From the NCBI RefSeq assembly GCF_019443505.1, contig NZ_CP080377.1, forward strand, positions 6,262,001 through 6,326,000: DNA of 64,000 nt, read 5' to 3'. Shown here one piece after another: positions 16,487 to 33,609 of this stretch (the first letter of the stretch is position 1; each line of letters opens with the position of its first letter). The stretch is from Janthinobacterium sp. PAMC25594. Its GTDB lineage: Bacteria; Pseudomonadota; Gammaproteobacteria; Burkholderiales; Burkholderiaceae_D. Made by a program: the position numbers and the translations under genes. Under the pieces are notes generated by a model that was not told the DNA's origin, made no database searches, and was given only the letters and a program-made list of their open reading frames with translations.

Positions 16487-16872
16487 ACATGGAACTGAAT
16501 CTGCACGGCGAGGCACGCGCCGTTGACAGCATCGCTGCGCTGGAACAGGCGCTGCGGGAGGCGCGCGCGCTGGCGCAGTGCGAGCTGTGGCTGACCCTGG
16601 CCACCGAGGCGGAGCAGGGCCCGGCCCTGTGCATGCTGCGCAACGGCGGCAACGCCTGGCTGATGTATCTGTCGGGGCAGGATGAGCTGAGTTTTCATAC
16701 GCTGGGCGACGAGGAGGCGGACGGCGTTTGCAGCTACCTGCTGTCGAATGGCCAGGTGGATGAGTATCCCGAAGCCTGGTGCGTGGAGGTGGAGCAATGC
16801 CAGCGCGCCTTCGTCGCGTTTTTCAGGACAGGCGGCGCGCGGCCGGCCGCCATCGCGTGGGAGGCGGATTGA
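16483..16872 (+). CDS. Imm1-family-like immunity protein
   Basis: A 129-residue protein without signal peptide. The last third, roughly VDEYPEAWCVEVEQCQRA then FFRTGGARPAAIAW, matches my memory of the C-terminal signature of Imm1 proteins: a strand, a helix ending in FFxTGxRP, then a Trp strand. The middle part (NAWLMYLSGQDELSFHTLGD) also fits. Imm1 proteins neutralise polymorphic toxins, often deaminases or nucleases. No toxin gene is adjacent, so it would be an orphan immunity gene. The GTG start overlaps the SulP stop, with GGGGG 6 bases upstream; the ATG 6 bases on is an alternative. Confidence 0.6.
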   Translation: MNMELNLHGEARAVDSIAALEQALREARALAQCELWLTLATEAEQGPALCMLRNGGNAWLMYLSGQDELSFHTLGDEEADGVCSYLLSNGQVDEYPEAWCVEVEQCQRAFVAFFRTGGARPAAIAWEAD

Positions 16873-16873
16873 G

Positions 16874-17143
16874 ATGCCGCAAACCACGCAAACGATCATC
16901 GCCGACATCGACAGTGAACTGGTGGCCGCGCTGGACGCCAGGGCAGGTTTATTGACGCTGCGCGCCATCCTGCTGCGCTACAAGGCCAGCGGCGTGACGG
17001 CGGCGCAGGTGGCCGGCTTGCTGCAGGAACTGCGTCCAGCCACGCAGGAGGGCCCGCTGGAAGACGTGATACTGGATGCCCTCGACATGGTGACAGGCTG
17101 GTGCACGCCGCAGCTGCGGGTATGGGACGACCAAGTCATATGA
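16874..17143 (+). CDS. small hypothetical protein (89 aa) in the Imm1 operon
   Basis: I do not recognise a named family. The chain is mostly helical and acidic, with TLRAILLRYKASGVTAAQVAGLLQELR followed by EDVILDALDMVTGWCTPQLRVW. The Trp-Cys near the end is conspicuous. The start is the ATG 1 base after the Imm1-like stop; the stop overlaps the next ATG (ATGA). The tight coupling suggests a shared role with the Imm1-like gene. No signal peptide or membrane segment is present. Confidence 0.7.
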   Translation: MPQTTQTIIADIDSELVAALDARAGLLTLRAILLRYKASGVTAAQVAGLLQELRPATQEGPLEDVILDALDMVTGWCTPQLRVWDDQVI

Positions 17144-17313
17144 ATCATCAAGATGAACGCCTGGACGCCTGGTACGACGGCTCGGCCATCTGCCTGATCG
17201 CCGTCGGTGCGCACGGCGACCCGCTGGACCTGAGCGACGACGAAGTGCGCGCGCTGATCGCGAAGCTGCAGCACTGCCTGGCCGAGTCCGAAGCTGCTGC
17301 GACAGACGACTGA
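17140..17313 (+). CDS. small hypothetical protein (57 aa)
   Basis: An acidic 57-residue protein beginning MNHQDERLDAWYDGSAICLIAV. It starts at an ATG overlapping the previous stop and is the last gene of the SulP-Imm1 operon. Two short strands (SAICLIAVG and a DPLDLS turn) and one helix (DDEVRALIAKLQHCLAES) are expected. No family is recognised. Codon use looks like that of its neighbours, and the operon-internal overlap supports it being real. Confidence 0.6.
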   Translation: MNHQDERLDAWYDGSAICLIAVGAHGDPLDLSDDEVRALIAKLQHCLAESEAAATDD

Positions 17314-17317
17314 CGGC

Positions 17318-17797
17318 TCAGGCGGCCGCCAGCGCCTTTTCCATCGCCACGCTGGCCAGGCTGATGCCGCTGGGATGCGCATACGCTTCCTCGCGCAAGG
17401 CGATGAAGCCGGCGGCAGCGTAAAACGGCTCCGCATTGAGCGACGCGGACAGGTGCAGGCGCGCAATGCCGCGCTGGCGCGCCTGCTGCTCCAGCGCCGC
17501 CAGCAGGCGCTTGCCGATGCCCAGGCCCGCGCGGGCCGGATCGACGAATACGGCATCGACTTCCTGCTTGTCCGCATCGAGCATGGCGTAGCCGGCAATG
17601 ATATCTCCCTGCAGCGCCACGATGCCGCCACCGGCAGCCAGCATGGCGGCATACGAGTCCGGCACGGGCGAGGCCGTCCATACGGCGATCTGTTCCGGCG
17701 CATAGTGCGTGGCGCAACCGACGCGCACGGCCACCGTGCGCAAGGCCCACAGGGCGTGGATGTCGAAGGGCAGCGCGGGGCGCACGGTGATGGGCAT
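17318..17797 (-). CDS. GNAT-family N-acetyltransferase
   Basis: A 159-residue acetyltransferase. The start was placed at the ATG giving MPITVRPALPFDIHALWAL; the longer frame upstream is an antisense shadow of the neighbouring gene. The acetyl-CoA-binding motif A is VDAVFVDPARAGLGIGKRLL (R/Q-x-x-G-x-G/A type), and the C-terminal motif B contains LNAEPFYAAAGFIAL. The substrate is unknown. It is convergent with the Imm1 operon and lies just downstream of the type VI immunity gene. Confidence 0.9.
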   Translation of the reverse strand: MPITVRPALPFDIHALWALRTVAVRVGCATHYAPEQIAVWTASPVPDSYAAMLAAGGGIVALQGDIIAGYAMLDADKQEVDAVFVDPARAGLGIGKRLLAALEQQARQRGIARLHLSASLNAEPFYAAAGFIALREEAYAHPSGISLASVAMEKALAAA

Positions 17798-17862
17798 GGG
17801 GGATTTCCGGGCAAAAGGCCATGCTAGCGCAATGGCTTGCACTGCGCCAGCATGCCTTTTTG

Positions 17863-18991
17863 TCACTGCGCCGGCTTGTCCGGATCGATGTAGTACGAGC
17901 CAGGCGGCGCACCCGGCACTTTCACCCGGAACTTCAGGCCGGACAGCAGCTTGTCCCACAAGGCAATGGCCTCTTCGTCCGTCAGCGATGCGGCTTCGGC
18001 GGCGCCGACCATGTTGTGGGCGACTTTGGTGTACATGGATGCTTCCAATACCGCTGGATAGGCGATATCGCGCGGCGTACCGACCAGTGTCCATTCAAAA
18101 TCATGCACGCCATCGGTACGCCGTATCAACGATTCCTCGCCATGCCAGTGCTGCACGTCACGCTTGCCCTCGCGTAGCAGAGTACGAGGGGGATAATTCT
18201 TGCCTTGTTGGTCTTTTGCTTCCTGGATACGAGCAAGTAATGATAATTTTCCACGTACTTTTGCATCATATTCGGCAGGAGGATAGTCACCGTAGGCATT
18301 TTTATTCGCAGTGATGGAAAAAGTCACGTCTGGAAAGCTGGGGAAATACAAGCCTGCATCCGCCATTTCCTGACTATTATATTTGTTGTCGCTCATGAAA
18401 CCATTTTTGACGCAATAGCCAGGTTCCTTGGGAACTTCATTTTCATCGCGCAGACGTAAGTTGTTGGCGCGGACCATTTGATTTCGTTTGGAGTCTGCTA
18501 TTGTTTCATCTTTTCTTTTTGATCCATCAAGAATAAATATGTGGTTTCCTTTTATAACGTAGGTCTTGAAGAATAGATCGCCATCTTCCTTGGAAAATTT
18601 CCCATCGTAATATTGAAGTTGCCAGCTATTTTCTACTGGACCTTTTTCATTGTATATAATTTCAGAGTTTGGGTCATTTTTTCTTATTTTTTCAATTTCT
18701 TCTTCAATGCGTTCGTTTTTTTTCTGTTATTCCACCTGGTATGCTCTTGATTTCCGAAAGAATTGTTGTTCCTCCTGATATGAGTTGTGCTTCTTGTGGA
18801 ACCTCCAGGGCATAGCGCCCGAAGCATACAATTTTTGTTTTTAAAAAGAGAACTTCCAGACGTTTGCTAAGTTTGAAATTCCCAAGCATTATGGTCTCCT
18901 TGTCTGCATTTTTTTTCGCGTGGGCGGATAGGAAAGCCATCGCAATAACTGTGATCGTGAGGAAAATTGTTTTCTTTATCTTATTATTCAT
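17863..18991 (-). pseudogene. Tli4-like type VI immunity protein, frameshifted
   Basis: Two reading frames form one gene. The first (18704-18991) has a Sec signal peptide ending SAHA and the family-like segment VCFGRYALEVPQEAQLISGG. It stops at 18704, just after an A8 run (plus-strand T8 at 18716-18723). Removing one A joins it without a stop to the frame ending at 17863, giving about 375 residues. The join reads NERIEEEIEKIRKNDPN, then continues to MVRANNLRLRDENEVP. Tli4-type proteins are periplasmic inhibitors of T6SS lipases, and the gene starts 3 bases after the lipase stop. The 5' half is markedly AT-rich compared with the region, a sign of transfer. Inactivation, slippage or a sequencing error are all possible. 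Confidence 0.75.
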
Positions 18992-18994
18992 GGC

Positions 18995-20848
18995 TTAATC
19001 CCATTTTGCCGTCTTGGCAATTTGTACGATGGAATACAGCATGGATGCCATTACATTTGTATCGGCATAGCTGTTCTGGTGGTCATAACCGTTCGCTTCC
19101 GCCATGCCATGTATGAACAGTGTGCCTGTGATGTGCCGTGCAGAACGGTCTGACGGTACCGTCCCATCACCGCGTGCACTGGCTGACTGTAGCTTTAATT
19201 TTAAGTTTTTCCCTCCGGCTTGGACGAGGAGTTGTCCCTTGCTATCATCTTCAAGTAATTTCCATTTTTCAGGTAGCGGCTCAAATTTATTCCATGGATC
19301 GTTAGATCCGCTGTGAAGACCGTTAATTAATTTAAATACGACATCGCCATAACTTAAAAAATTCCTCGATGCGCAATAGCTTGCATAAGTGTTTGGGTGA
19401 AACGTTTTCTCTATGGATGATAAAAATTCTGAGGCTTTTCTTATGCGCTTCATTGTTTCTTCTATACCGCCACCTTTTTCACGAGGGAGGTCAGCGGGGT
19501 TTACCCATTTTGGGTTGATTAGCCTCCACCACGCATTGGCGGGTTGAAGGTAAATGCTTTCCAGTGCAGTGGCCTTATCGCGAGGCCAGCTCCATAAAAC
19601 TTTATCCTGTGCATCTACAATTTTCAGCCAATTCTGGCCATATGCCGCACCTGGCAACATTTCCAGTGGCGCTGGTGCGTTAGCCAGAATGGCGGTAGCA
19701 TGCATACCGTCGATGCCCAGAATTTTGGCTTCTATTTCTGCTATAGAACCTTCTCTTTCCTGAAAGCCAAAACGCATGCGTTTATATGCCCCTGCGGCTC
19801 CAATGGTTGGCATCACGTTGTGATAAATTCCCAGAATTTTCACATCTTTATCATCAAGCATCTTTCCATAGCTGGGGTGTATCAATGCACGGGCCAGCAA
19901 GCCCCCCATGCTATGCGTGACGATGATGACTTCGTTGCATTTGAATCCGCGTTGCTGGTAGCCTTTGACCAGACCGCGCAGTCGCTCTGCAATAGTGACG
20001 GCGGATACCCCATTGCTCTTGATAAAGTTGTAACCCATCGCATGCACTGGATACCAGCAAGGAGAAATTTTCTTTAAATCGCCGACGCTAATGGCTTTGC
20101 CCGATGACGCGCCAAAATTTTCTGGATCTTGCAAAAGCAGTGCGCCAAGGCCACTCGTTTGACGCCAGACAGGATGTGGCTTACCGTCGGAAATCATGTT
20201 ATTGAGATGCAGTTCGGCAGCCCGCAACATTGTTCCGTATGCACCAGCAAATAACACTTCACTCCATCCTCGCCAACGTGCTATTTGTGCTGGGCTTTGG
20301 TAGGAGCAGGCTTTACCTTGATTCGGACGTGTTGTTGTCGCGATCCTGTTAGTTCCCATTAAAGGAGGAATGGGTGTAAAGCTGTCGGGCACATTTTGAT
20401 GTCGTGCATCTGCGGCTCTGGTTTCCGCACCGTCTGGATCGAAGCGGCTGTTGCTTTCGGTGTAATGGTAGTACTCGACTTCGGTTTCATTGGGATCAAA
20501 CACCAATTGACGCTGCCGTGGCGACGCATCTTTGAACCAGCCACCCAAACCATTGTTTGTGAGGACAGCCGCCTTGCCTCCCGCACCCATCATATCGTCT
20601 GGCCGCCAAGCCCGATTGTCTGGACGGCCCAATTCTTCCTGGCGCACCTTGCTCATCCGTAGATTGCTGCCCATCACGCCTGGCAGGAAAATGACAGGAA
20701 TTACCTTGCCTGGCGGTAGGGTGACGTCATGTCGCGCGGTATCTTTTGTTTCCGTCATCGAAACGGCGAGTTCCGCCCAACCTCCTACGCCCTGACTAAA
20801 TTTTTCAGGATGATTGCCGCGGTTATTCAAGTCCTCACATTTGCTCAT
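18995..20848 (-). CDS. T6SS lipase effector, GxSxG-type Tle family (probably Tle4-like)
   Basis: A 617-residue alpha/beta hydrolase without signal peptide, as expected for a VgrG-delivered effector. The oxyanion region is VIFLPGVMGSNLR (about residue 50). The nucleophile elbow is THSMGGLLA (GxSxG-like with Thr first, about residue 315). A late GDGTVP and YDHQNSYAD probably supply the Asp and His of the triad. Its ATG overlaps the VgrG stop (ATGA), and a Tli4-like gene follows by 3 bases, so delivery by that VgrG and neutralisation by that inhibitor are inferred. Assignment to Tle4 rather than another Tle class rests on the immunity partner. The predicted target is periplasmic phospholipid of rival cells. 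Confidence 0.78.
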   Translation of the reverse strand: MSKCEDLNNRGNHPEKFSQGVGGWAELAVSMTETKDTARHDVTLPPGKVIPVIFLPGVMGSNLRMSKVRQEELGRPDNRAWRPDDMMGAGGKAAVLTNNGLGGWFKDASPRQRQLVFDPNETEVEYYHYTESNSRFDPDGAETRAADARHQNVPDSFTPIPPLMGTNRIATTTRPNQGKACSYQSPAQIARWRGWSEVLFAGAYGTMLRAAELHLNNMISDGKPHPVWRQTSGLGALLLQDPENFGASSGKAISVGDLKKISPCWYPVHAMGYNFIKSNGVSAVTIAERLRGLVKGYQQRGFKCNEVIIVTHSMGGLLARALIHPSYGKMLDDKDVKILGIYHNVMPTIGAAGAYKRMRFGFQEREGSIAEIEAKILGIDGMHATAILANAPAPLEMLPGAAYGQNWLKIVDAQDKVLWSWPRDKATALESIYLQPANAWWRLINPKWVNPADLPREKGGGIEETMKRIRKASEFLSSIEKTFHPNTYASYCASRNFLSYGDVVFKLINGLHSGSNDPWNKFEPLPEKWKLLEDDSKGQLLVQAGGKNLKLKLQSASARGDGTVPSDRSARHITGTLFIHGMAEANGYDHQNSYADTNVMASMLYSIVQIAKTAKWD

Positions 20849-23439
20849 GGCAGTTCTCCCTTATAACGAATGATGTAGCTGTCCATGCCGGTGGATTTTT
20901 GTAGTTGCGTGGAACCGTCTTCCGCGCTTTTGCCGGCCATGTTGCCGTCATCGCGCAGGATTTCAAAAGCAACGCCGACGGCTGGCGTATCGTCGACATT
21001 CACCAGCAAGACTTCCTGATCAAAACTGCTGTGTGGCCGTTCATTAAATTCCTGCGACACGCTCTTCGGCGCCAGGGTCTCCAGGTTGCCGTTGAAGAGC
21101 ACCGGGGATGAGGTGAAGAACTGCACCTTGTCGCTGATTTCCAGCATGTGGTTGGCGCCGTGCAGGCGGATGCCTTTCTTGCCCTTGATGTTGACCCAGT
21201 CCGCTTCGCTGATCTGCGACAAGACTTTCCGGGCGAGAATTTCCACCTCGTCGCTGTGGGCCTGGATGGACACCTTGCCGCTGGCGGCGATCAGCTTCAT
21301 GCCGGCCTTGTGCACGAACAGGCTGAAGCTCCTGGCGATGCTGGCAAACATGCTGTCGCCGCTGGCGAGTGAAATATGCTTGCTGCTGGTGAGCGCCACA
21401 TGCTCGCTGGCGGCCAGGTGGATGGACTGGGCCGTGCTCAGCTCGATGCCGGCCGGGCTGGCCAGCAGCAAATGTGGTTCGGACAGCTCCGGGAAATCGC
21501 CGCCGGCGCCCTTGATGGCGGCGTTTTGCCGCTGGATGGATTCGGCCACGCCGCCCTGTTGAGCGGCGCTGTCTTGCGCACCCGCGTCGACAGCCATGCC
21601 GGCCAGTCCCTCTTGCAGTTGGCGCGCCTGCGCCAGGCGAGCTTGTGTTTCGTCGAGCTGTTTGACTGATCCCGTTCCTGTTGATGTTTCGGTGGTGATC
21701 AGCATGCCTTTGGCGGCACGCAGGGCGCCCCAGGCGTTGCTGGCCAATTCAAAGCCCACGCCGCGCGCCTCCTTGCGGCCGGCGTTGTCGTCGATGCGGG
21801 TGATGTTGCCCAATGACAGACGGCTATCCTGGTGCTCGCTGCGCAGCTGTGCCTGGATCGAGCCCTTGGTGTCGTCGAGCACCAGGTGGTTGGCGCTGCG
21901 GGCGCCCAGTTCGCGGCTGCGCAAGCCGGACAGGGCACGCTGCTGAGGCAGTTGCCATGGCGGCGGATTGGCGCTGTTGTAGACCACGCCGATGACGATG
22001 GGATGGTCGATATTGCCGTCCTGGAATTGCACGACGACTTCCTGGCCTACACGGGGCAAGGCGATTTGCCCCATTTGCGGGCCCGCCATCGGCATCATGA
22101 CCCTTATCCACGGCGAGCTGCGCTCATCGAATGTGCCCAGGCGGTCCCAGTGAAATTGCAGGCGGATGCGTCCCAGGGCATCGGTATGGATTTCCTCCCC
22201 GGCCGGCCCGACCACCAGCGCCGTCTGCACGCCGGCAACGATGCATGGCGTGCTGTTGTAGCCACGGCCCGGCCGCCAACGGATGTCCCGGCGCACGCAC
22301 ACCATATTGTTGACATAGTGGGAGGGCGCGCTGGGGCCAACCTGATAATTATTGCTGGCGCTATGCACCACTGACAGGATCAGGTATTCGCGTTCGGCAA
22401 TACTGTCAGGGCGCTCCTGGCCAGGCTGGTAGTGTTTTTCCTCGGCGCTGAAATGCCCATCGAGCCGGAAGCAAAGGCCGGGCTGTGCGCCACGATGATT
22501 GCCGGCCGCCTCGAAATACTGGCGCAGATGGTCGCTTTCTTCCATGCGGCGTTGTGCCAGCGATTCCCCATCATCGACATTCCTGTAGCCATAGGCGCCC
22601 GTGTTTTCGTACAGTTCGTGGGCAAATACATCGCCCTGGCGATTCAGGGAGTGGCCGCTGGCAAGGCGTGGCTGCGGATTCTTATAGTCGAAACTGGCCA
22701 AGGTCAGCTGCCCGGAGCCGATCCGGCGCACGGCTTGCCACTGTTGCAAGCCATCGTCTTCCATGGAACCCGACTCGGAGTGAAAACGCATGGCGCCGTC
22801 GCCGGATGCCGTGGCGATCATGTCCGCCAGGATGCTGTTGTCCGCGAGCCAAAGCGTATGCCCATCGGCGCGGTGCGCGTACCAGTAATGCCAGCCCAGC
22901 GCCTCCCAGCGCCGGTGCAGGTGGTTGTAGTCGGTTTCATTGTGCTGGTTGGCGCAAGTGATCTGTGGATCGTCGCCATGGATGCTGGTTTGCCAGTCGC
23001 GCTGCCCGTAGTGCGCGAACGTTGTTTCGGTCAGCTGTATCACGCTTTGGCCATGAAAGGACACATTGTCCTGGCGCAGCCGGGCAAAGGCCAGCCACGG
23101 TTGCAGCACCATGCGGTACCACGCAAAGCCGCCATCGGCGCGCAGCAGGCAAAACTCGCCCACATAGCCGTTAAAGTAGCGCAGCGTGCCATCGTCGCGC
23201 AGCATGGAAATGCTCACCATGCGGCCCATCATGGCCTTGAGCGCAATGTGCGCGTCATCGGACAGCAATTCGGCTTCGAAACGGAAGTCGCGCGATACCT
23301 CTTCCCTGGCAGTGAGCGAATTGACCAGCAGGATGGCGCCGGCCGGGCCATCGTCATGGGGGAACTCGATCTTCAGCAAGCGCCGCTCTTGCGCGGCGAG
23401 GTCGAAGGCCGATAGTGCCGCCTGGATGCTTGCATGCAT
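20845..23439 (-). CDS. vgrG: type VI spike protein VgrG with DUF2345 and C-terminal extension
   Basis: An 864-residue spike trimer subunit. The N-terminal gp27-like part (about 1-380) is followed by the gp5 OB-fold with VGPAGEEIHTDALGRIRLQFHW and SPWIRVMMPMAGPQMGQIALPRVGQEVVV. The DUF2345 beta-helix extension covers about 560-790 (LASPAGIELSTAQSIHLAASEHVALTSSKHISLASGDS). A final module (about 800-864; VDDTPAVGVAFEILRDDGN) resembles the transthyretin-like adaptor seen in effector-carrying VgrGs. It sits between the PAAR gene and the lipase gene, overlapping the latter by 4 bp. Confidence 0.95.
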   Translation of the reverse strand: MHASIQAALSAFDLAAQERRLLKIEFPHDDGPAGAILLVNSLTAREEVSRDFRFEAELLSDDAHIALKAMMGRMVSISMLRDDGTLRYFNGYVGEFCLLRADGGFAWYRMVLQPWLAFARLRQDNVSFHGQSVIQLTETTFAHYGQRDWQTSIHGDDPQITCANQHNETDYNHLHRRWEALGWHYWYAHRADGHTLWLADNSILADMIATASGDGAMRFHSESGSMEDDGLQQWQAVRRIGSGQLTLASFDYKNPQPRLASGHSLNRQGDVFAHELYENTGAYGYRNVDDGESLAQRRMEESDHLRQYFEAAGNHRGAQPGLCFRLDGHFSAEEKHYQPGQERPDSIAEREYLILSVVHSASNNYQVGPSAPSHYVNNMVCVRRDIRWRPGRGYNSTPCIVAGVQTALVVGPAGEEIHTDALGRIRLQFHWDRLGTFDERSSPWIRVMMPMAGPQMGQIALPRVGQEVVVQFQDGNIDHPIVIGVVYNSANPPPWQLPQQRALSGLRSRELGARSANHLVLDDTKGSIQAQLRSEHQDSRLSLGNITRIDDNAGRKEARGVGFELASNAWGALRAAKGMLITTETSTGTGSVKQLDETQARLAQARQLQEGLAGMAVDAGAQDSAAQQGGVAESIQRQNAAIKGAGGDFPELSEPHLLLASPAGIELSTAQSIHLAASEHVALTSSKHISLASGDSMFASIARSFSLFVHKAGMKLIAASGKVSIQAHSDEVEILARKVLSQISEADWVNIKGKKGIRLHGANHMLEISDKVQFFTSSPVLFNGNLETLAPKSVSQEFNERPHSSFDQEVLLVNVDDTPAVGVAFEILRDDGNMAGKSAEDGSTQLQKSTGMDSYIIRYKGELP

Positions 23440-23451
23440 GGCCTGCCTCCG

Positions 23452-23706
23452 TTATAGCGATGTGATCAGGTGGGCGCCGCAGGCGGTGGCATCGCCGTCA
23501 TAGGCATACGGCTTGCCCAGGTGTTTTGCGCCGGCGCCGTCCGGCGTGATGGGAAAGTTGCCCTTGCATTTGGGGCAGAAAGTCATGTCATCGGCCAGCG
23601 CCGCCGTCTTCCCCATCACGGTAGTGCCGGATGATGCGCTGGTGACCTTGCCGCCATGATCGGTTGCGTCTCCGAGCCGGATAACGCCGCGTCCCGCATG
23701 TTTCAT
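23452..23706 (-). CDS. PAAR-domain spike-tip protein
   Basis: An 84-residue PAAR protein that caps the VgrG trimer. The pattern GRGVIRLGDATDHGGKV, then FCPKCKGNFPI, then YDGDATACGAHLITSL is characteristic. The His and Cys residues probably bind the zinc at the tip. The start is the ATG with GAGG 6 bases upstream; an in-frame ATG 18 bases earlier is less likely. It is 12 bp upstream of vgrG in the same operon, behind tssG. It carries no toxin extension. Confidence 0.9.
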   Translation of the reverse strand: MKHAGRGVIRLGDATDHGGKVTSASSGTTVMGKTAALADDMTFCPKCKGNFPITPDGAGAKHLGKPYAYDGDATACGAHLITSL

Positions 23707-23735
23707 GCTTGCCTCGCTTTCCATGGATGAGTTGC

Positions 23736-24761
23736 TCAAGCCAGTTGCAGCAGATAACGCACTTCGGCGCCGCGTACCTTGCCTTGTGCGGTTTGCAAGA
23801 ACGTCGTCCAGCCAAGGCGTCGTCTTTCTGACGGATTGGCACTCAGGAGCAGGGGGGTAATGCATGGCGGACTCAGTATCAGCCGCACTTCATATTGCAA
23901 GTCCGGCACGCCAAACAGCGTCAGCATCTTTGCCAGTGCCGCCGCCCCCGCGCTGCGTGGCAGGAAGCGTTGCAGGCCGGCGGGATCCAGCGGGCCGATA
24001 TGCAGGCAGATGCGCATGTCCTGGCGCCACAGCCGCAGGCCCAGGGTTGCGCCGCGCGCCAGCGTAAAGTTGACACTGCCTAGCAGGCTGCGCCGGTTTT
24101 TTTCCAGATAGTCCCAGCCACCGACAAATTGTTGCAAGGTGACGGGTACGCCGCAGTATTCGGCCAGCACGCGGCCAATCGCTTGCGCGGAGACGGGACG
24201 GCAGCGCAGCAGACCCGCGTACCAGGCCGCGACGTCCTGCGTCACGGCATCCGGTGCGGCCTTCGACGGCAGCGCAGTGCGCCGCACGCCGCCCAGTGCC
24301 AGCAGCAAAGGCAATTGTGCATCTTTTGCCTGGGTCTGGAGCGTCGATTCCAGCCGATACTTTTCCCACGTCTGGTAATACAGCGCGACCATGCGGTGCG
24401 AAAAGATATCGAGAAAGGCCGAGACGCCGGCATCCTTGCTCGACAAGCGGTAGGCGGCGATGCGTTCCGAGTGATGCAAGGGCAAAGTGCCGCCGACGCC
24501 CAGAAAACGCATGAACGTCGGTGTCAGGATCAGTTGTTCATGCTCGTCGAGCGAGAGCTGTTCGATTTCACTGGCGGGAAAACTCAAGGACAAGCTGTTT
24601 TTGAAGCGCAATACCTGGCTGAAGGCTTGTGCATGGGACACGTTCTGCTGACGTAGCCAGCACAGCAGAATACGCACCGCCTGGATGAACTGGTAGCGGT
24701 ATGGCTCGGCCAGCAAGTGGTGCATCACACCAGATTCTGCAGTCCGCTTCTTGGTTTGCAT
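23736..24761 (-). CDS. tssG: type VI baseplate subunit TssG
   Basis: TssG (VasB/ImpH), about 341 residues, usual size. Opening segment HHLLAEPYRYQFIQAVRILL and the later FKNSLSLSFPASEI and GVGGTLPLHHSERIA match the family. TssG sits with TssF and TssK in the wedge of the T6SS baseplate. I chose the ATG at 24761, which overlaps tssF by 37 bp and gives the usual short lead. A start at 24725, sharing a base with the tssF stop, is the alternative. It lies between tssF and the PAAR gene. Confidence 0.92.
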   Translation of the reverse strand: MQTKKRTAESGVMHHLLAEPYRYQFIQAVRILLCWLRQQNVSHAQAFSQVLRFKNSLSLSFPASEIEQLSLDEHEQLILTPTFMRFLGVGGTLPLHHSERIAAYRLSSKDAGVSAFLDIFSHRMVALYYQTWEKYRLESTLQTQAKDAQLPLLLALGGVRRTALPSKAAPDAVTQDVAAWYAGLLRCRPVSAQAIGRVLAEYCGVPVTLQQFVGGWDYLEKNRRSLLGSVNFTLARGATLGLRLWRQDMRICLHIGPLDPAGLQRFLPRSAGAAALAKMLTLFGVPDLQYEVRLILSPPCITPLLLSANPSERRRLGWTTFLQTAQGKVRGAEVRYLLQLA

Positions 24762-26530
24762 CGGATCAGCTCCTCTCCGCTTTGCTGTGACAGCACCACC
24801 AGTTCGATGAAACTGTTGATTTGCACATACAGCCCAAGGAAGTGATCGATCACCTGCACAAACAGGTGCATGCCGCTGCCGACGAACGCTTCCTCGTCCA
24901 GCGTGATGCGCACCTCCACGCCATGCGCCAGCGAGGTTCCGCGCTTGTGCCGCAGCCATGTCGTGGTCGGCGCGTGCGCCAGCGCGGCGATGCCGCCGAT
25001 CTGGCGTTGCGAGCTTGCCGATTGGGACAGGTCATACAGCGTCAGCATTTCGCGCAGCGCCGGCAGGCCTTCCTGGACCAGCGCGTGATGATTCAGCGCC
25101 AGGTGCGAAATGAGGCGCCAGTGCAGGCCCGCGCCCGGCGAAAAGCGGCGCGGCTGGCTGGGGCGTCGCAGCATGTGCAGCGCGGGTCCGCCAGCGCATG
25201 GCTGCAGGTCTCCTTGCGGCTGGCCGTATTTGAGGGCAAGGGGAAGATCGCGGTTGCTGCATGTCAGCGACAGCGACAAGCTGGCCTTTTCATGGATCAA
25301 GGGATTGAAGTCGCTGTCGACCAGCGTGATTTTCTTTTCGTGACCAGGACTGTTGATGGCCAACGCCGTATCGTGGCGCATGACCCAGTAATGGCCTTGT
25401 TGCGCCGTGCCCTCGCCATGGCGCAGGCTGTACAGGGGGCGAAATTCGCTCAGCGTGCTTTCGCCTCCCCGTTGGCGCAGCAAGCGCACCGCATCGACGG
25501 AAACGACTTCGTAGCCATGCGCATGCGTGGCATGGGCCAGCACGGAGTAGTCGGTTTTTTGCCGGGTGACGGAAATCGGCACGCCTTCCTGGCGGAAGAG
25601 ATTGACCGCAGGACTGCAGCCTAACTTTAAGTTTTCGCTGGAAATGCTGGACAACATGCGCGCCGCAGCGGAATCGGGCCGCAAGCCGGCCATGCACAGA
25701 TGCAGGGTAAAGCGCTGGCTGCCAGGCGGCAGGGCCGCGCTCAGCGCCGCGATATCGATGTCAAAGAAATTGAATTTTTCCGGATACGCAAAATACTCGC
25801 TCAGGATGCGGTACGCGGGCTGCGAGCGAGCACCGAACGGTATCAAGGCATCCGTGTCGGCGAAGCCGACGGGCGTCACAGGCACGGCAGGCAAGGCCAT
25901 CCATTGCAGCGCGTCGATCGACACAAAAGCGCAGACCGTATGCCTGAACAAGGCATCGCGCAATGCGGCGGAAAAAGAAGCTTCGCCATCGATGAAAACG
26001 CGCAGCGATGCTGGCGCCGCGTCGAGATGCCGGATGCCGATGTTCAGCGAGGAAGTTGCCGATGCTGGCAGGCGCACGCCTGGCGGCGCCTTGATCATGG
26101 CATCGTAAACGGCGCTGTCCAGTACCGATGCTCCTGTCGTCATATCGTAGATCGTCTTGAAACGGCAGCGCACGCCGCGCACGGGCGTTGCGTCCATTTC
26201 ACTGCCGGCCGGCAGGTGCGATACGCCTGCGCCAGCCGCCGGGGTGGGCTGGCGCACGATGCTGCACGATGGAAAGGGGCGTAGATAATGGGGGAACAGG
26301 GCTTCGAACAAGGCTTCGGTAAATTGCGGATAGTCGTCATCGAGCCGTTTTGAAATACGTGCCGCCAGCATGGCCACCGATTCGATCAGGTGTTCGACGT
26401 GCGGATCTTCGCAAGCTTCGCCGGACATGTGCAGTTTTCCGGCGACTCTCGGATAGCGCTCGGCAAACTCACGGCAATGTCGCCGCAGCATCACCAGCTC
26501 GCGCTCGAAATACGGCAGCAAATCCTCCAT
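24725..26530 (-). CDS. tssF: type VI baseplate subunit TssF
   Basis: TssF (VasA/ImpG), 601 residues, full length. The start MEDLLPYFERELVMLRRHCREFAERYP and the following LIESVAMLAARISKRLDDDYPQFTEALFEALFPHYLRP are diagnostic. AGGA lies 10 bases before the ATG. It is the first gene of the minus-strand operon tssF-tssG-PAAR-vgrG-tle-tli and is divergent from tssK across 174 bp. The usual companion tssE (gp25-like) is not here. Confidence 0.95.
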   Translation of the reverse strand: MEDLLPYFERELVMLRRHCREFAERYPRVAGKLHMSGEACEDPHVEHLIESVAMLAARISKRLDDDYPQFTEALFEALFPHYLRPFPSCSIVRQPTPAAGAGVSHLPAGSEMDATPVRGVRCRFKTIYDMTTGASVLDSAVYDAMIKAPPGVRLPASATSSLNIGIRHLDAAPASLRVFIDGEASFSAALRDALFRHTVCAFVSIDALQWMALPAVPVTPVGFADTDALIPFGARSQPAYRILSEYFAYPEKFNFFDIDIAALSAALPPGSQRFTLHLCMAGLRPDSAAARMLSSISSENLKLGCSPAVNLFRQEGVPISVTRQKTDYSVLAHATHAHGYEVVSVDAVRLLRQRGGESTLSEFRPLYSLRHGEGTAQQGHYWVMRHDTALAINSPGHEKKITLVDSDFNPLIHEKASLSLSLTCSNRDLPLALKYGQPQGDLQPCAGGPALHMLRRPSQPRRFSPGAGLHWRLISHLALNHHALVQEGLPALREMLTLYDLSQSASSQRQIGGIAALAHAPTTTWLRHKRGTSLAHGVEVRITLDEEAFVGSGMHLFVQVIDHFLGLYVQINSFIELVVLSQQSGEELIRCKPRSGLQNLV

Positions 26531-26704
26531 CTTTCTTTTCCTGTGTCTTTGCGGCGGAATGGCCAGTATCCGAGCGTTTTCTCAAAGGTAAATTGCGTTT
26601 GCGCAAATAATTGAACAGGGTGCTGCGCGACATCAAGGGCTTCCACGCTAACAACATCAGACTGGCAAAGCAGCAAGATTCCAACGGTCAACATGGAGAA
26701 CGCC
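26531..26704. other. tssF/tssK divergent intergenic region
   Basis: It must hold both promoters of the type VI module. I looked for a sigma-54 promoter with 10-bp GG/GC spacing and found none. A short minus-strand frame reading MSRSTLFNYLRKRNL resembles a helix-turn-helix fragment but has no gene around it. No clear operator or terminator is seen. Confidence 0.5.
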
Positions 26705-28051
26705 ATGACATTGCCATCCAAATTACTTTGGTCCGAAGGCCTGGCCATCGGCCCCCAGCAATTCCAGCAGCTGGACCGCTACCATGAAGCGCGCCTGCAA
26801 CGTCTGGCCTCGTTGATTAATCCCCATTTATGGGGCGTGCATGGCGTCAGCTGGAATGCGGATGCACTGGCCAACAATAGCTTGCGGGCGGACGCCATGT
26901 CGCTCGTCTTTCAGGATGGAGAACTGTTTGAGGCGCCGCTTGGCGATGTATTGCCCAGTGCCGTGGATCTGTCCAAGCTGCCTTCCAGCGAACATAGTTT
27001 TACTTTTTATGCCGCGCTGCCGGCGCTGCAGGCACATGGCGGCAATGTGAGCTCCGCAGGCGCGCGCTATGTCCAGGCGGATATCGAGACCCCGGATCTG
27101 TACAGCGAGGCAGTCAGCATCGAGGTGGCTTATTTGAAGAAGCGCGTGTACCTGCTGTCGCAACTCGACCCCCTGAATGATTACCTTGCCATCCCGGTGA
27201 TTCGTTTGTACCGTGCCGGCAACGGCGGCTTCGAAGTCGATACTTCCTTCATGCCACCTGGCCTGACCATCAGCGCCGAGTCTTCGCTGCAGAAAATGCT
27301 CGAGTCGCTGATCGACCGCATGGGCGCGAAAATTGAAGCGCTGTACAGCCGCCACCGTCAGCCCGGTAACAATACGGTGGAATTTCATGGCGGCGATGTT
27401 TCCTCGTTCTGGATGCTCAATACATTGAGCACGGCCAGCGCCACGCTCAGTCATTGCGCCAGTTACCGGCGCCACCATCCCGTGTATTTGTTTGAAAAAT
27501 TGATGGCGTTGGCCGGTGGCTTGATGACGTTTTCGAAAAAATACACGTTGAGCGACTTGCCGGCTTATTCCCACGATGATGCGGCTCCCGGTTTCGGCAA
27601 GCTCGATGGCATTATTCGCGACCTGATCGATACGGTGCTCCTGTCGCGTTACTTCCCGATTGCGCTGTCCAACGACGCGCAACAAAACACCCACTATTAC
27701 GGCTTGCTCGATGCCAAGCGGATTGACCGTCAGACCGAACTCTGTCTTGCCGTAAACGCCGATATGCCGGCGCTGGAACTGGTCGCCACGGTGCCGTTGC
27801 AGTTCAAGATTTCATCTCCGGACAATATCGAACTATTGCTGGGCCGGGCACTTCCGGGTGCCGAGTTGCGTCATATGGCCCAGGTTCCTGCTGAAGTGCC
27901 GGTGCGGCCGAACACATATTATTTTTCCATCGATGGCAAGGGCAGTATTTATGACAGCATGATCAAGGCCCAGGCGATTGCGATTTATGTGCCGTCTGGC
28001 ATAAAAGGGCTGAAGCTGGAATTGTTCGGTATCAGCGGTACCGCCGCGTAA
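26705..28051 (+). CDS. tssK: type VI baseplate subunit TssK
   Basis: TssK (VasE/ImpJ), about 448 residues, usual size. The N-terminus KLLWSEGLAIGPQQFQQLDRY corresponds to the family opening (VxWxEGxxLxPQHFQQ). TssK links the baseplate to the TssL/TssM membrane complex through its C-terminal head. GGAG 6 bases before the ATG at 26705 decides that start over the ATG 12 bases upstream. It stands alone on the plus strand, divergent from tssF. No tssL, tssM or tssJ follows; a sensor kinase comes next. Confidence 0.93.
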   Translation: MTLPSKLLWSEGLAIGPQQFQQLDRYHEARLQRLASLINPHLWGVHGVSWNADALANNSLRADAMSLVFQDGELFEAPLGDVLPSAVDLSKLPSSEHSFTFYAALPALQAHGGNVSSAGARYVQADIETPDLYSEAVSIEVAYLKKRVYLLSQLDPLNDYLAIPVIRLYRAGNGGFEVDTSFMPPGLTISAESSLQKMLESLIDRMGAKIEALYSRHRQPGNNTVEFHGGDVSSFWMLNTLSTASATLSHCASYRRHHPVYLFEKLMALAGGLMTFSKKYTLSDLPAYSHDDAAPGFGKLDGIIRDLIDTVLLSRYFPIALSNDAQQNTHYYGLLDAKRIDRQTELCLAVNADMPALELVATVPLQFKISSPDNIELLLGRALPGAELRHMAQVPAEVPVRPNTYYFSIDGKGSIYDSMIKAQAIAIYVPSGIKGLKLELFGISGTAA

Positions 28052-28149
28052 CGATGCGTGGCGTGGCGAGCGGGTGGATTGTCAAAAGATTGCCCTAAGG
28101 AATAGACTTGCCCCTGCAGTTGACGTTATCATGTTTTTGTAAGTGTCGG

Positions 28150-28163
28150 TGGCTGATCAGCCA
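28150..28163. promoter_or_regulatory. 14-bp perfect palindrome upstream of the sensor kinase operon
   Basis: TGGCTGATCAGCCA, about 45 bp before the first kinase gene. A TTGACG lies some 30 bp further upstream, at about 28120. It could be an operator or part of an early hairpin. Confidence 0.35.
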
Positions 28164-28207
28164 GCGCATGGGTAAAACATGGTGACAGGCGGGAGTGGGC
28201 ATGACGA

Positions 28208-31200
28208 ATGATGCGTGATGTGCCGGGCGGTGGGCAGGGCAGGGCAGCGGTGCGCCGCTGCTGCCGCGCATTGCTGCTGGCGTTGTGTATCGCCGCGCCC
28301 TGCGCCGCATCGCCGGCAGCGGCAGCGGCCGTCGCGCCGCCGCACGAGGGCCAGCGCGTGCTGTTCCTGAACGCCTACGACTATGGCCGCGCCGGCGTGG
28401 AATCGTACACGCGCACCTATGTGACCGCCATGGTCGCCGCGGGCCTGGCCAGCGAAGACATCATGGTCGAGCACCTGAACCTGAATACCCAGGGCGACCC
28501 GGCGCTGCGCAACGAAATGCGCGATTTGTTGCTTTTAAGATACACCCAGATGATGGGGCGCAAGGCCGACCTGATCATCGCCATGCAGCAGCCGGCGCTC
28601 GATTTTTTGCTGTCGGACCTGGCGCCGCTGGCGCGCGGCGTGCCCGTGCTGGCGATTAACACCTCGGGCATGGTCTTGCCTGCCGGCAGTCCGCCTGCCA
28701 TCTGGCAGCAAAAGGCGAATGTCGACTTTCCCGGCACGCTTGCGCAAGCCATGGCGCTGTTCCCGGAAACCAAGACCATCGTCATGGCCGTCGGCACCAG
28801 CGAGGCCGACCAGGTCTTGAAGCGCAGCATGCAGCAGGCGGCGCTGGCATGGCAGGGCAAGGTGGCCATGCGCTACCTCGATGACCTGACCCTGGAGCAG
28901 ATGCGCGCGGCGGTGGCGCGCCTGCCCGCCGATACCGTGCTGGTGGCGGGCAATGTCAACCGCGACGTGGCCGGCAATATCGCCACGCCCGTGCAGTTTT
29001 CCGTACAGCTGGCGCGGCTGGCGAATGTGCCCACCTTTGGCATGTACAACGCGACGGTCGGCAAGGGCATCCTCGGTGGCTCCATCCTGCACATCGAACG
29101 GGCCGCGCAGCAGGTGGCGCAGATGTCGCTGGCCGTGTTGGACGGCAAGGCGCCCGCCGCGCCGGGAGCCTTGCTGCCGCCGGTTCGCCCGGTGCCCATG
29201 TATGACTGGGAACAGTTGCAGCGCTGGGATGCCGACATCAGCCGCCTGCCGCCGCACACGCTGTTCTTCAACCGGCCACCGCAACTGTGGCACGAGCACC
29301 GCGTTGCCGTGCTGCTGGTGGGCGGCGTCTTCATCGTGATGGCCGGCTTGCTGAGCGCCTTGCTGCTGCAGCGGCGGCGTTTGCGGCGCGCCGAGAGCGA
29401 GGCGCGCGAGAGCGAGCAGCGCTTCCGCATCCTCGTCGAGCATGCGCCGGAAGCCATCCTGGTGTACGACCTGGACCTGGACCGCTTCGTCGACGCCAAC
29501 AGCAGCGCGCAGCGCATGCTGGGCCTGTCGCGCGCAGCGCTGCTGGCGCGCGGGCCGTTCGACCTGTATGCCGGCAAGCAGCCCGATGGCTTGCCGCTGG
29601 GGCTGATGATGGAAGAGCATCTGCGCCGCGCCATGCTGGGCGAGCCTGTCCTGGTGGAACGCAATGTGCGGCGTGCCGACGGCAGCATTTTTCCCTGCGA
29701 GGTGCGGCTGGTCAAGTTGCCCATGGAGGGGCGGCGCCTGGTGCGCAGCGGTATCGTCGACATCTCCGAGCGCAAGCACAGCGAGCAGGAATTGCTCGGC
29801 TACCGCGACCACCTGGAAGAACTGGTGCAGCAGCGCACGGCGGCCCTGTCGGTGGCCGTCACCGAGGCCGAATCGGCGAACCGCGCGAAAAGCGTCTTCC
29901 TGGCCAACATGAGCCACGAATTGCGCACGCCCTTGAATTCCGTGATCGATTTTTCGCAGATGATGGCCGATTCGAGCAGCATGTTCGAGGAAGAAAAGCA
30001 CAACCTGGCCATCATCAACCGCGCCGGCCATCATTTGCTGACCTTGATCAACGACATCCTCGAATTGTCGAAAATCGAAGCGGGCCGCATGCAGCTGCAA
30101 ACGGGACCCGTGGACTTGAATGGCTTGCTCGACGAAGTGCTCGAAATGGTGCGCATGCGCTCGAGCGACCAGGGCATCGCGCTGCAGATCGAACGTTCCG
30201 GCGTGCCGCCGCTGGTGCGCCTCGATGGCGCCAAGCTGCGCCAGGTGCTGCTCAATTTGCTGTCGAACGCGCTCAAGTTCATCGAGCAGGGCAGCGTGAC
30301 CCTGTCGCTGGCGTGCCAGGCGGCGGAAGGTGGGCAGATGGCGCTGGCGTTTGCCGTGCGCGATACGGGCAGCGGCATCGCGCAAGCGGATCTGGAACGC
30401 ATCTTTGAACCGTTCGTGCAGGCCGACAGCGCCGTGGCGCAGGCCGGCACGGGACTGGGGCTGACCATTTCGCGCGAATTCGTGCGCCTGATGGGCGGCG
30501 AGCTGCGCGTCGATTCCACCTTGGGAGCGGGCTCCGTATTCCGTTTCGACCTGCGCGCGCCGGTGCTGCAGCAGCCGGCCATCGCGGCGCTGGCGCCGGG
30601 CCGCGTGGCGCGCCTGCCGCCGGGCCAGCGCGGACGCATGGTGCTGCTGGTCGACGATGACGACAACTGCCGCAAGCTGCTGGCCGGCTTGCTGGCGCCG
30701 CTGGGCTTCCAGCTGCGGGAAGCGGCGGGCGGCGCGCAGGCGCAAGCCATGCTGGCGGCGCAGCGCTATGACATGGTGCTGAGCGACTGGCGCATGCCGG
30801 ACATGGATGGCCTGGCGCTGACGCGCTGGCTGCGCGCGCAGCCGGCGCTGGTGCAACCGCGCCTGGTGATCATGACCGCTTCCGCCTTCGAAGAAGAAAA
30901 GCAGGAGGCGCTGGCGGCCGGCGCCGACGGCTTCCTGCGCAAGCCGATCGAACAGGAACACCTGTTCGCCATGCTGGAGCAGCAACTGGGCGTGCGCTTT
31001 CAGCGCACCGCCGGCGCGCCGCCGCGCGTGCCGGCGCCAGCCTTTGACCTGTCGCAGGCGCTGGGCCAGCTGGGCGCGGCCGAACGGCAGGCGCTGCTCG
31101 AATCCGTGCAGGCCCTCGATTTGCGGCGCAGCGCCATCGTGCTGGCCGGCGTGGCGACCGGCCTGCCGCAGCTGTCCGCCCACATCGCCGCCATGCTGGA

Positions 31201-31273
31201 ACAGCATCAATACCAGCCGCTGTGCGCCTTGCTGACGCAGCTGGCCAGCGAACCGCAGGGCGAAGACGCATGA
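28208..31273 (+). CDS. hybrid sensor kinase with periplasmic ABC-type binding domain
   Basis: A 1021-residue membrane kinase. A signal peptide or anchor (about 15-40) is followed by a periplasmic domain (about 48-345) of the ABC substrate-binding type, with RVLFLNAYDYGRAGVESYT and AGNVNRDVAGNI. Then come a membrane helix (VLLVGGVFIVMAGLLSALLL, about 365), PAS (about 400-520), HisKA (His in [16 protein letters not shown]), HATPase ([25 protein letters not shown]) and a receiver (Asp in MVLSDWRMPDMDG, Lys in FLRKP). The C-terminal helical tail ends LEQHQYQPLCALL and is echoed in the next gene. The ATG of the next kinase overlaps its stop. The ligand is unknown. Confidence 0.93.
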   Translation: MMRDVPGGGQGRAAVRRCCRALLLALCIAAPCAASPAAAAAVAPPHEGQRVLFLNAYDYGRAGVESYTRTYVTAMVAAGLASEDIMVEHLNLNTQGDPALRNEMRDLLLLRYTQMMGRKADLIIAMQQPALDFLLSDLAPLARGVPVLAINTSGMVLPAGSPPAIWQQKANVDFPGTLAQAMALFPETKTIVMAVGTSEADQVLKRSMQQAALAWQGKVAMRYLDDLTLEQMRAAVARLPADTVLVAGNVNRDVAGNIATPVQFSVQLARLANVPTFGMYNATVGKGILGGSILHIERAAQQVAQMSLAVLDGKAPAAPGALLPPVRPVPMYDWEQLQRWDADISRLPPHTLFFNRPPQLWHEHRVAVLLVGGVFIVMAGLLSALLLQRRRLRRAESEARESEQRFRILVEHAPEAILVYDLDLDRFVDANSSAQRMLGLSRAALLARGPFDLYAGKQPDGLPLGLMMEEHLRRAMLGEPVLVERNVRRADGSIFPCEVRLVKLPMEGRRLVRSGIVDISERKHSEQELLGYRDHLEELVQQRTAALSVAVTEAESANRAKSVFLANMSHELRTPLNSVIDFSQMMADSSSMFEEEKHNLAIINRAGHHLLTLINDILELSKIEAGRMQLQTGPVDLNGLLDEVLEMVRMRSSDQGIALQIERSGVPPLVRLDGAKLRQVLLNLLSNALKFIEQGSVTLSLACQAAEGGQMALAFAVRDTGSGIAQADLERIFEPFVQADSAVAQAGTGLGLTISREFVRLMGGELRVDSTLGAGSVFRFDLRAPVLQQPAIAALAPGRVARLPPGQRGRMVLLVDDDDNCRKLLAGLLAPLGFQLREAAGGAQAQAMLAAQRYDMVLSDWRMPDMDGLALTRWLRAQPALVQPRLVIMTASAFEEEKQEALAAGADGFLRKPIEQEHLFAMLEQQLGVRFQRTAGAPPRVPAPAFDLSQALGQLGAAERQALLESVQALDLRRSAIVLAGVATGLPQLSAHIAAMLEQHQYQPLCALLTQLASEPQGEDA

Positions 31274-33435: not shown

Positions 33436-33609
33436 AAGTGTGGGCTGACAACATCGAATTCGATGAAAAGGCGGACTAAGTGCCGTGGATGGATGGTGCC
33501 AAATTGCAATAAAGATTATGATGATAGTACGTAGTTCATCGCAAAGAAATGTCTTGTCCAGCGTGGCAACCGACCGCCGCGCCTCATCCAAAGCTGAGAG
33601 AACTGCTAC
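33436..33609. other. intergenic region before the GGDEF-EAL gene
   Basis: 174 bp holding a 12-bp palindrome ATCGAATTCGAT near 33453-33464. No terminator was found after the kinase, so readthrough into the next gene is possible, and no convincing -35/-10 pair is visible. Confidence 0.4.

Follow-up and report, generated by a model that had tools for sequence, protein, structure and literature searches.

In studied type VI secretion systems (T6SSs), the genes of the TssEFGK-VgrG baseplate belong to the main cluster. Auxiliary T6SS islands carry hcp, vgrG, PAAR, and effector genes, and we know of none with wedge genes. Structural work presents the wedge as a fixed part of one machine: the sections of PMC6300606 on which we draw describe a (TssK)6(TssF)2(TssG)1(TssE)1 complex closing around VgrG, in which the inner TssF contacts VgrG, the outer TssF contacts the sheath, TssG contacts TssM, and the TssK head contacts TssL/M. 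For Janthinobacterium, one or more complete clusters plus an incomplete T6SS locus have been described in strain SLB01, together with several orphan genes (PMC8929069), and in J. agaricidamnosum (PMC10470514); the parts of both papers considered here draw no link between missing tssF/G and detached cassettes. The "alternative baseplate" of PMC6450956, in its corresponding part, concerns TssA/TagA at the distal sheath end and is not a detached wedge cassette. Among the papers listed for the open literature, none describes multiplied tssFG cassettes alongside a core lacking tssF/G in its title or abstract opening; subscription papers fall mostly outside this scope, and prior notice is possible.

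Here, we analysed a window of 64,000 nucleotides from Janthinobacterium sp. PAMC25594 (6262001-6326000 of its single 6.55-Mb contig), which contains a compact group of T6SS genes. A second tssK copy, tssK2, lies on the forward strand (window positions 26693-28051; PF05936, E 2.1e-116, and TIGR03353), divergent from a reverse-strand series composed of tssF (24725-26530; PF05947, E 1.1e-166, and TIGR03359), tssG (23736-24725; PF06996, E 1.4e-73, and TIGR03347), the gene of a PAAR tip protein (23452-23724; PF05488, E 1.1e-19), and vgrG (tssI; 20845-23439; PF05954, E 1e-64, and TIGR03361, E 1e-117); we refer to this wedge and spike as class A. All five proteins score above their own Pfam cut-offs, and NCBIfam concurs on TssK, TssF, TssG, and VgrG, while PAAR rests on Pfam. 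TssK2 is 46.5% identical to the TssK of the core cluster described below. On the same strand as tssF follow a putative lipase effector gene (18995-20848) and a Tli4-like immunity gene in two parts, N-terminal (18704-18991; PF18443, Tli4_N, E 9.7e-6, slightly below the cut-off) and C-terminal (17863-18477; PF18426, Tli4_C, E 4.3e-31). An earlier sequence-only reading had described all genes of this module as complete, which holds for tssK, tssF, tssG, PAAR, and vgrG and fails for the Tli4-like gene, which is split over two frames. Its statement that the window has no other T6SS core genes was borne out, purpose-built profiles finding no TssA, TssB, TssC, TssE, TssJ, TssL, TssM, Hcp, or ClpV in the 64 kb. 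The locus differs from a main cluster, in which core tss genes share one locus, in having only tssK, tssF, tssG, vgrG, and PAAR, and from an auxiliary or orphan vgrG island in having tssF, tssG, and tssK at the same locus as vgrG. Three wedge components (TssK, TssF, and TssG) are encoded in the window and the fourth, TssE, in the core cluster; in some relatives, all four genes are found within a single cassette.

The lipase reading frame is open beside the frame-split Tli4-like gene (17863-18991), in which Tli4_C and the start of Tli4_N lie in different frames; relatives keep both parts in the same order. The predicted product, a 617-aa alpha/beta hydrolase, has weak Pfam matches to PGAP1 and Abhydrolase families (PF07819, E 1.9e-5; PF12697, E 6e-4) and no NCBIfam match, and near-full-length matches, 58-97% identical, occur in most class A relatives. 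A "Tle4-like" label for it would derive only from the adjoining gene belonging to the Tli4 family, within which Tli4_C is the part that matches above cut-off. The module had also been taken as bounded by GNAT and sensor kinase genes, which is half right, since both sides have co-oriented neighbours. The GNAT gene on the left points in the same direction as the tssF operon, and genes encoding a hybrid histidine kinase, a histidine kinase, and a response regulator-GGDEF-EAL protein (Pfam; 28208-35814, forward strand) are co-oriented with tssK2. Between tssK and 28208, no terminator-like site was called and two promoter-like matches were (28079-28132), in scans whose promoter and terminator counts are close to the shuffled mean. 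A co-oriented large gene stands beside tssK2 at most Janthinobacterium class A loci and not at most of those in other genera, and a possible link between these c-di-GMP signalling genes and the cassette is a guess. The region 16800-28300 contains only short, unremarkable two-copy repeats, with no mobile-element ends apparent, and the 422 plasmid records matching the window TssF are all below 60% identity, so there is no sign of class A spreading by plasmid.

Genome-wide profile searches located the core cluster about 430 kb from the window, around a single VipB (TssC) match place at 5.854 Mb. It comprises tssM, tagF, an OmpA-like gene, tssL, tssK, tssJ, a TPR gene, tssB/tssC, hcp, tssE, clpV, and tssA, and profile matches around VipB include no tssF, tssG, or vgrG. 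An overlooked core tssF/G can be set aside, as none of the whole-genome TssF matches lies near the core, where tssE abuts clpV. TssF was instead matched at three places, 2.666 Mb, 5.533 Mb, and the window, and TssK at two, the core and the window. Cassette A (the window) thus has tssK2, tssF, tssG, PAAR, vgrG, and the lipase gene; cassette B (2.666 Mb) has tssF, tssG, vgrG, a DUF2169 gene, and an Rhs gene with a PAAR-like domain; and cassette C (5.533 Mb) has tssF, tssG, vgrG, Tle3, a gene of no assigned family, and PAAR. Cassettes B and C lack tssK. All 13 T6SS families are spread across these four loci, TssB/TssC only as a truncated 360-aa fusion. The genome encodes five VgrG proteins, and a sixth match to this family is weaker and shorter; two of the five stand without tssFG: a class A-like vgrG next to a phospholipase D-like gene, and a class C-like vgrG with Tle3 and PAAR, found one each in L116:5658-10515 and L117:5013-12086.

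The sequence-only reading had left three explanations side by side, namely an exchangeable unit, a split main cluster, and a remnant, and held that a genome with the remaining tss genes but no further tssF/G/K would make the window simply the other half of one split system. The core does lack tssF/G, so the system is split; it has its own tssK and tssE, however, and the F/G half is present three times, so the window is not simply that other half. We consider it unlikely that a single ordinary T6SS was split, with the window as its other half and no exchangeable part. Such a split would account for tssF/G being missing from the core and present in the window, and split core loci have a counterpart in Neisseria T6SS-A (PMC10210955, in the sections drawn on here), but tssK occurs twice in this genome and tssFG three times as a detached set, every set accompanied by a spike and an effector of its own. 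The module is probably one baseplate-spike-effector cassette of a distributed T6SS, the core of which lacks tssF/G, in which case features of the exchangeable-unit and split-cluster explanations are mixed.

In this strain, the machine itself appears damaged. A single TssB/TssC gene was found (L004:7793-8875, genome 5853793-5854875). It encodes an in-frame fusion of 360 aa that joins about 70% of TssB to the second half of TssC; the TssB end is missing, as is approximately the first half of TssC. Aligned with relatives at the DNA level, the sheath gene lacks two stretches, one on either side of a short retained piece. All 22 other such cores that were read have two full genes, the TssB being 163-169 aa and the TssC 480-499 aa long. 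With its sheath gene truncated, this strain probably has an inactive T6SS, barring an error in the assembly. The sheath lesion suggests decay in this strain, and, together with the frameshifted immunity gene, would fit a lineage whose machine no longer fires, or else assembly errors.

To place this arrangement in context, we surveyed 40 Janthinobacterium genomes, 39 of which carry T6SS genes (G022 gave no match), calling a VipB TssF-less where no full-length TssF lay within 20 kb and not counting TssF pieces or weak and partial TssK matches as intact. VipB stood without a full-length TssF inside 20 kb in 36 of the 39, and 33 of these 36 had at least one full-length detached TssF (one in 6 genomes, two in 13, three in 10, and four in 4), while none of the 39 had a full-length detached TssF without a TssF-less VipB. 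Every VipB had a TssF nearby in G002, G031, and G037. The three of the 36 with no full-length detached TssF were two fragmented drafts (G023 and G029, 83% and 88% complete) and G011, where the locus is incomplete and its TssC falls among those of full clusters. TssF-less sheath loci were fully read in 23 of the 36 genomes (22 relatives and this strain, G000) and in G011, and judged by position in the others. Among 79 TssE-ClpV pairs read, 39 hold tssF/G in a gap of 2.9-3.1 kb, and 40 have no tssF/G between them, with a profile-match gap of 0-60 bp in 37 and 428-869 bp in 3.

Class A was found in 32 of the 40 genus genomes, at 33 loci. A synteny comparison, as the sequence-only reading had proposed, found the order tssK-tssF-tssG-PAAR-vgrG called at 28 of these 33 loci, the other five being variants, contig ends, or gene-caller misses, and the effectors vary among the loci. 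The class A cassette holds the sole full-length detached TssF in G020, G026, and G028, as expected if the window were merely a missing half, but of the 36 genus genomes in which a VipB is TssF-less, 27 have two to four detached full-length TssF. One genome (G024) has classes B and C with no full-length class A, so that tssK2 is not universal. At 16 of the 21 class C loci of the genus (noted at L014:17701-19941 and L015), the cassette faces a Ser/Thr kinase-TPR gene; the remaining five, which form a more distant C subgroup, face a different gene.

Three genomes are telling. In the Janthinobacterium genome G003, the core is without tssK, tssE, tssF, and tssG, and both TssK are encoded in two cassettes, each with tssK, tssE, tssF, tssG, and vgrG; three further matches to the gp25 family, which includes phage proteins, lie elsewhere, none near VipB. 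Massilia polaris (G050) has VipB, TssF, TssK, and a TssE-type gp25 match once each genome-wide, with TssF, TssK, and gp25 grouped with tssG away from a core that has none of them; no VgrG was recognised in this cassette stretch. In G013, the core TssK is an 81-aa piece, and the TssK of the class A cassette is full. If these systems work, the cassette wedge genes must serve the core.

The same organization extends to other genera. The best 80 TssF loci from a species-wide collection with at least 592 relatives, some of the 80 being Janthinobacterium loci already in the genus set, included 43 without TssB/C, Hcp, or ClpV in the stretch, some stretches reaching contig ends (44 with L138, scored "full" by rule from a lone Hcp and a class A cassette by its TssF). 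We built TssF, TssK, and TssC trees with FastTree, leaving out identical sequences and loci below 85% (TssF) or 80% (TssK, TssC) profile cover, as well as the sheath fusion of this strain in the case of TssC; several nodes are weak. In the TssC tree, a single clade (support 0.99) unites 41 TssF-less cores from Janthinobacterium and other Oxalobacteraceae genera and stands beside the TssC of complete clusters. The TssF tree (164 sequences) groups 50 loci as class A with support 1.0. Of these, 17 are outside the genus set, in Massilia, Rugamonas, Duganella, Pseudoduganella, and other Oxalobacteraceae, with some changes in layout, and none of the 17 is in a complete cluster. Classes B and C are resolved as well, as are the complete clusters, in whose clade Massilia K-E-F-G loci are nested. 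This nesting indicates that the K-E-F-G loci probably derive from complete clusters, and the overall tree pattern that detachment probably occurred more than once. We further examined 24 non-genus genomes drawn from 34 non-Janthinobacterium cassette loci, and hence chosen for carrying a detached locus: 19 had a TssF-less VipB, 2 had no VipB, and 3 had only VipB with a nearby TssF, and 61 of their 80 TssF had no VipB within 20 kb on the same contig. Two Massilia drafts (G040 and G041, reached via L128 and L131) have three detached TssF each and no VipB match, from either incomplete assembly or core loss, and ten Massilia loci (L222, L225, L227, L229, L231, L235, and L237-L240) show a TssF-TssG pair without TssK, TssE, or VgrG in the stretch.

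Purifying selection acts on the cassette genes much as on those of the core, with tssG somewhat less strictly constrained. Among relatives 85-99.9% identical over 95% of length, median dN/dS for class A was 0.07 for tssK2 (26 pairs), 0.12 for tssF (24), 0.20 for tssG (22), and 0.11 for vgrG (22); the other wedges gave 0.14 for tssF-B (16 pairs) and 0.16 for tssF-C (7), and the core gave 0.10 for tssK (18), 0.14 for tssE (18), 0.13 for clpV (20), and 0.09 for tssL (19). These values bear on the remnant explanation, in which cassettes are leftovers of extra T6SS clusters after gene loss and only decay is left. The nested Massilia loci, the broken TssF and TssK pieces in several genus genomes, and the damaged sheath and Tli4 genes of this strain would all agree with it. 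However, cassette genes are constrained close to core level, class A order is kept at most genus loci and the class recurs at 17 loci in other genera, and tssE sits next to clpV, with no tssF/G between, in 40 cores. Conservation and purifying selection thus argue against a remnant for the genus, and we regard that explanation as very improbable. On sequence grounds, the distributed T6SS, in which baseplate, spike, and effector genes are grouped in several detached cassettes, appears to be real, conserved, and beyond what "split" or "remnant" conveys.

We also considered whether wedge and spike are matched. The VgrG tree follows the TssF classes: class A cassette spikes (48) and class C ones (21) each occupy a clade of their own, and the 20 of class B group together, L048 among them with weak support. 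Such agreement would be expected if each wedge type existed because its spike type fits only that wedge, although linkage by itself would also yield it. Distances do not follow this pattern: TssF A, B, and C are roughly equidistant (45-48% identity), whereas VgrG identity is 56% between A and B and 28% between A and C. Moreover, a C-type VgrG query across the 40 genus genomes did not support strict pairing, as 20 genomes have C-type VgrG outside class C cassettes and 8 of the 20 lack class C TssF (an internal stop interrupts two of these orphan matches, that in G021 and one of the two in G031; a partial match in G028, without class C TssF, was left out of the counts). In L178 and L196, the spike near a full-type wedge is C-type, and in L157 and L180 it is B-type; strictly cognate pairs therefore seem to us quite unlikely. 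Identity along TssK likewise gave no sign that TssK2 is specially fitted to the core membrane complex, and we rejected that idea: with domain borders that we assumed, the C-terminal/N-terminal identity ratio was 1.11 for Janthinobacterium class A vs. core, 1.06 for class A vs. full-cluster, and 1.29 for core vs. full-cluster TssK. That the C-terminal part of TssK2 is not notably core-like counts against a distributed system, for which a shared membrane complex might predict such a fit. Also weighing against it are the three genus genomes whose TssF-less VipB has no full-length detached TssF, the five non-genus genomes with no VipB or only VipB near a TssF, the M. polaris cassette stretch without a recognised VgrG, and the damaged sheath and immunity genes of this strain.

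For the distributed T6SS that we favour, a mechanism can be proposed. A core without TssF/G would form no normal wedge until a detached cassette supplied both. Each cassette would be a baseplate kit, expressed as a unit and nucleating on its own spike, and its TssF/G, sometimes with TssK/E, would assemble with the core by recruiting its sheath and membrane complex; cassettes B and C would use the core TssK, and class A would bring a second one. The cassette chosen at baseplate assembly may then bias which spike and toxin are fired, which is how a cassette might reprogram effector choice, as the sequence-only reading had proposed. We consider it evenly poised whether this amounts to a T6SS whose baseplates are interchangeable, where a core conserved among genera without tssF/G (in two of the genomes examined also without tssE/K) builds functionally different machines from alternative wedge-spike-effector cassettes. 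This group of soil and water bacteria appears to keep a tssF/G-less core with several wedge sets, to which spikes and toxins are tied. If this is true, the cassettes offer natural replacements with which to test the wedge surfaces matching spike, sheath, and membrane complex, and they show why gene-cluster callers may score such T6SSs as "incomplete".

Several known systems offer points of comparison. It resembles the VgrG/PAAR-defined T6SS versions of Serratia marcescens (PMC4924876) in having one core and several spike-effector sets with differing cargo. In Serratia, VgrG, PAAR, and effectors vary, whereas here tssF/tssG are multiplied with the spike, some cassettes also multiply tssK and tssE, and the core is without tssF/G. 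Like orphan vgrG loci and auxiliary islands, the cassettes are vgrG-effector loci detached from the core, and unlike auxiliary islands, they carry wedge genes. Neisseria T6SS-A also has core genes in two loci, with tssF, tssG, and tssE apart from others, but its split runs along other lines (tssM, tssA, tssF, tssG, tssJ, and tssE together), and the sections of PMC10210955 considered here mention no multiplied tssFG sets, unlike what we observe. The TssEFGK-VgrG baseplate unit (PMC4604203, PMC6300606) is itself present in G003 cassettes and in Massilia K-E-F-G loci, with the exception of VgrG in M. polaris. Where that unit has been a constant element of a single apparatus, our reading, if true, would make the baseplate, besides the spike, a swappable part, and effector choice could be set as the baseplate is assembled.
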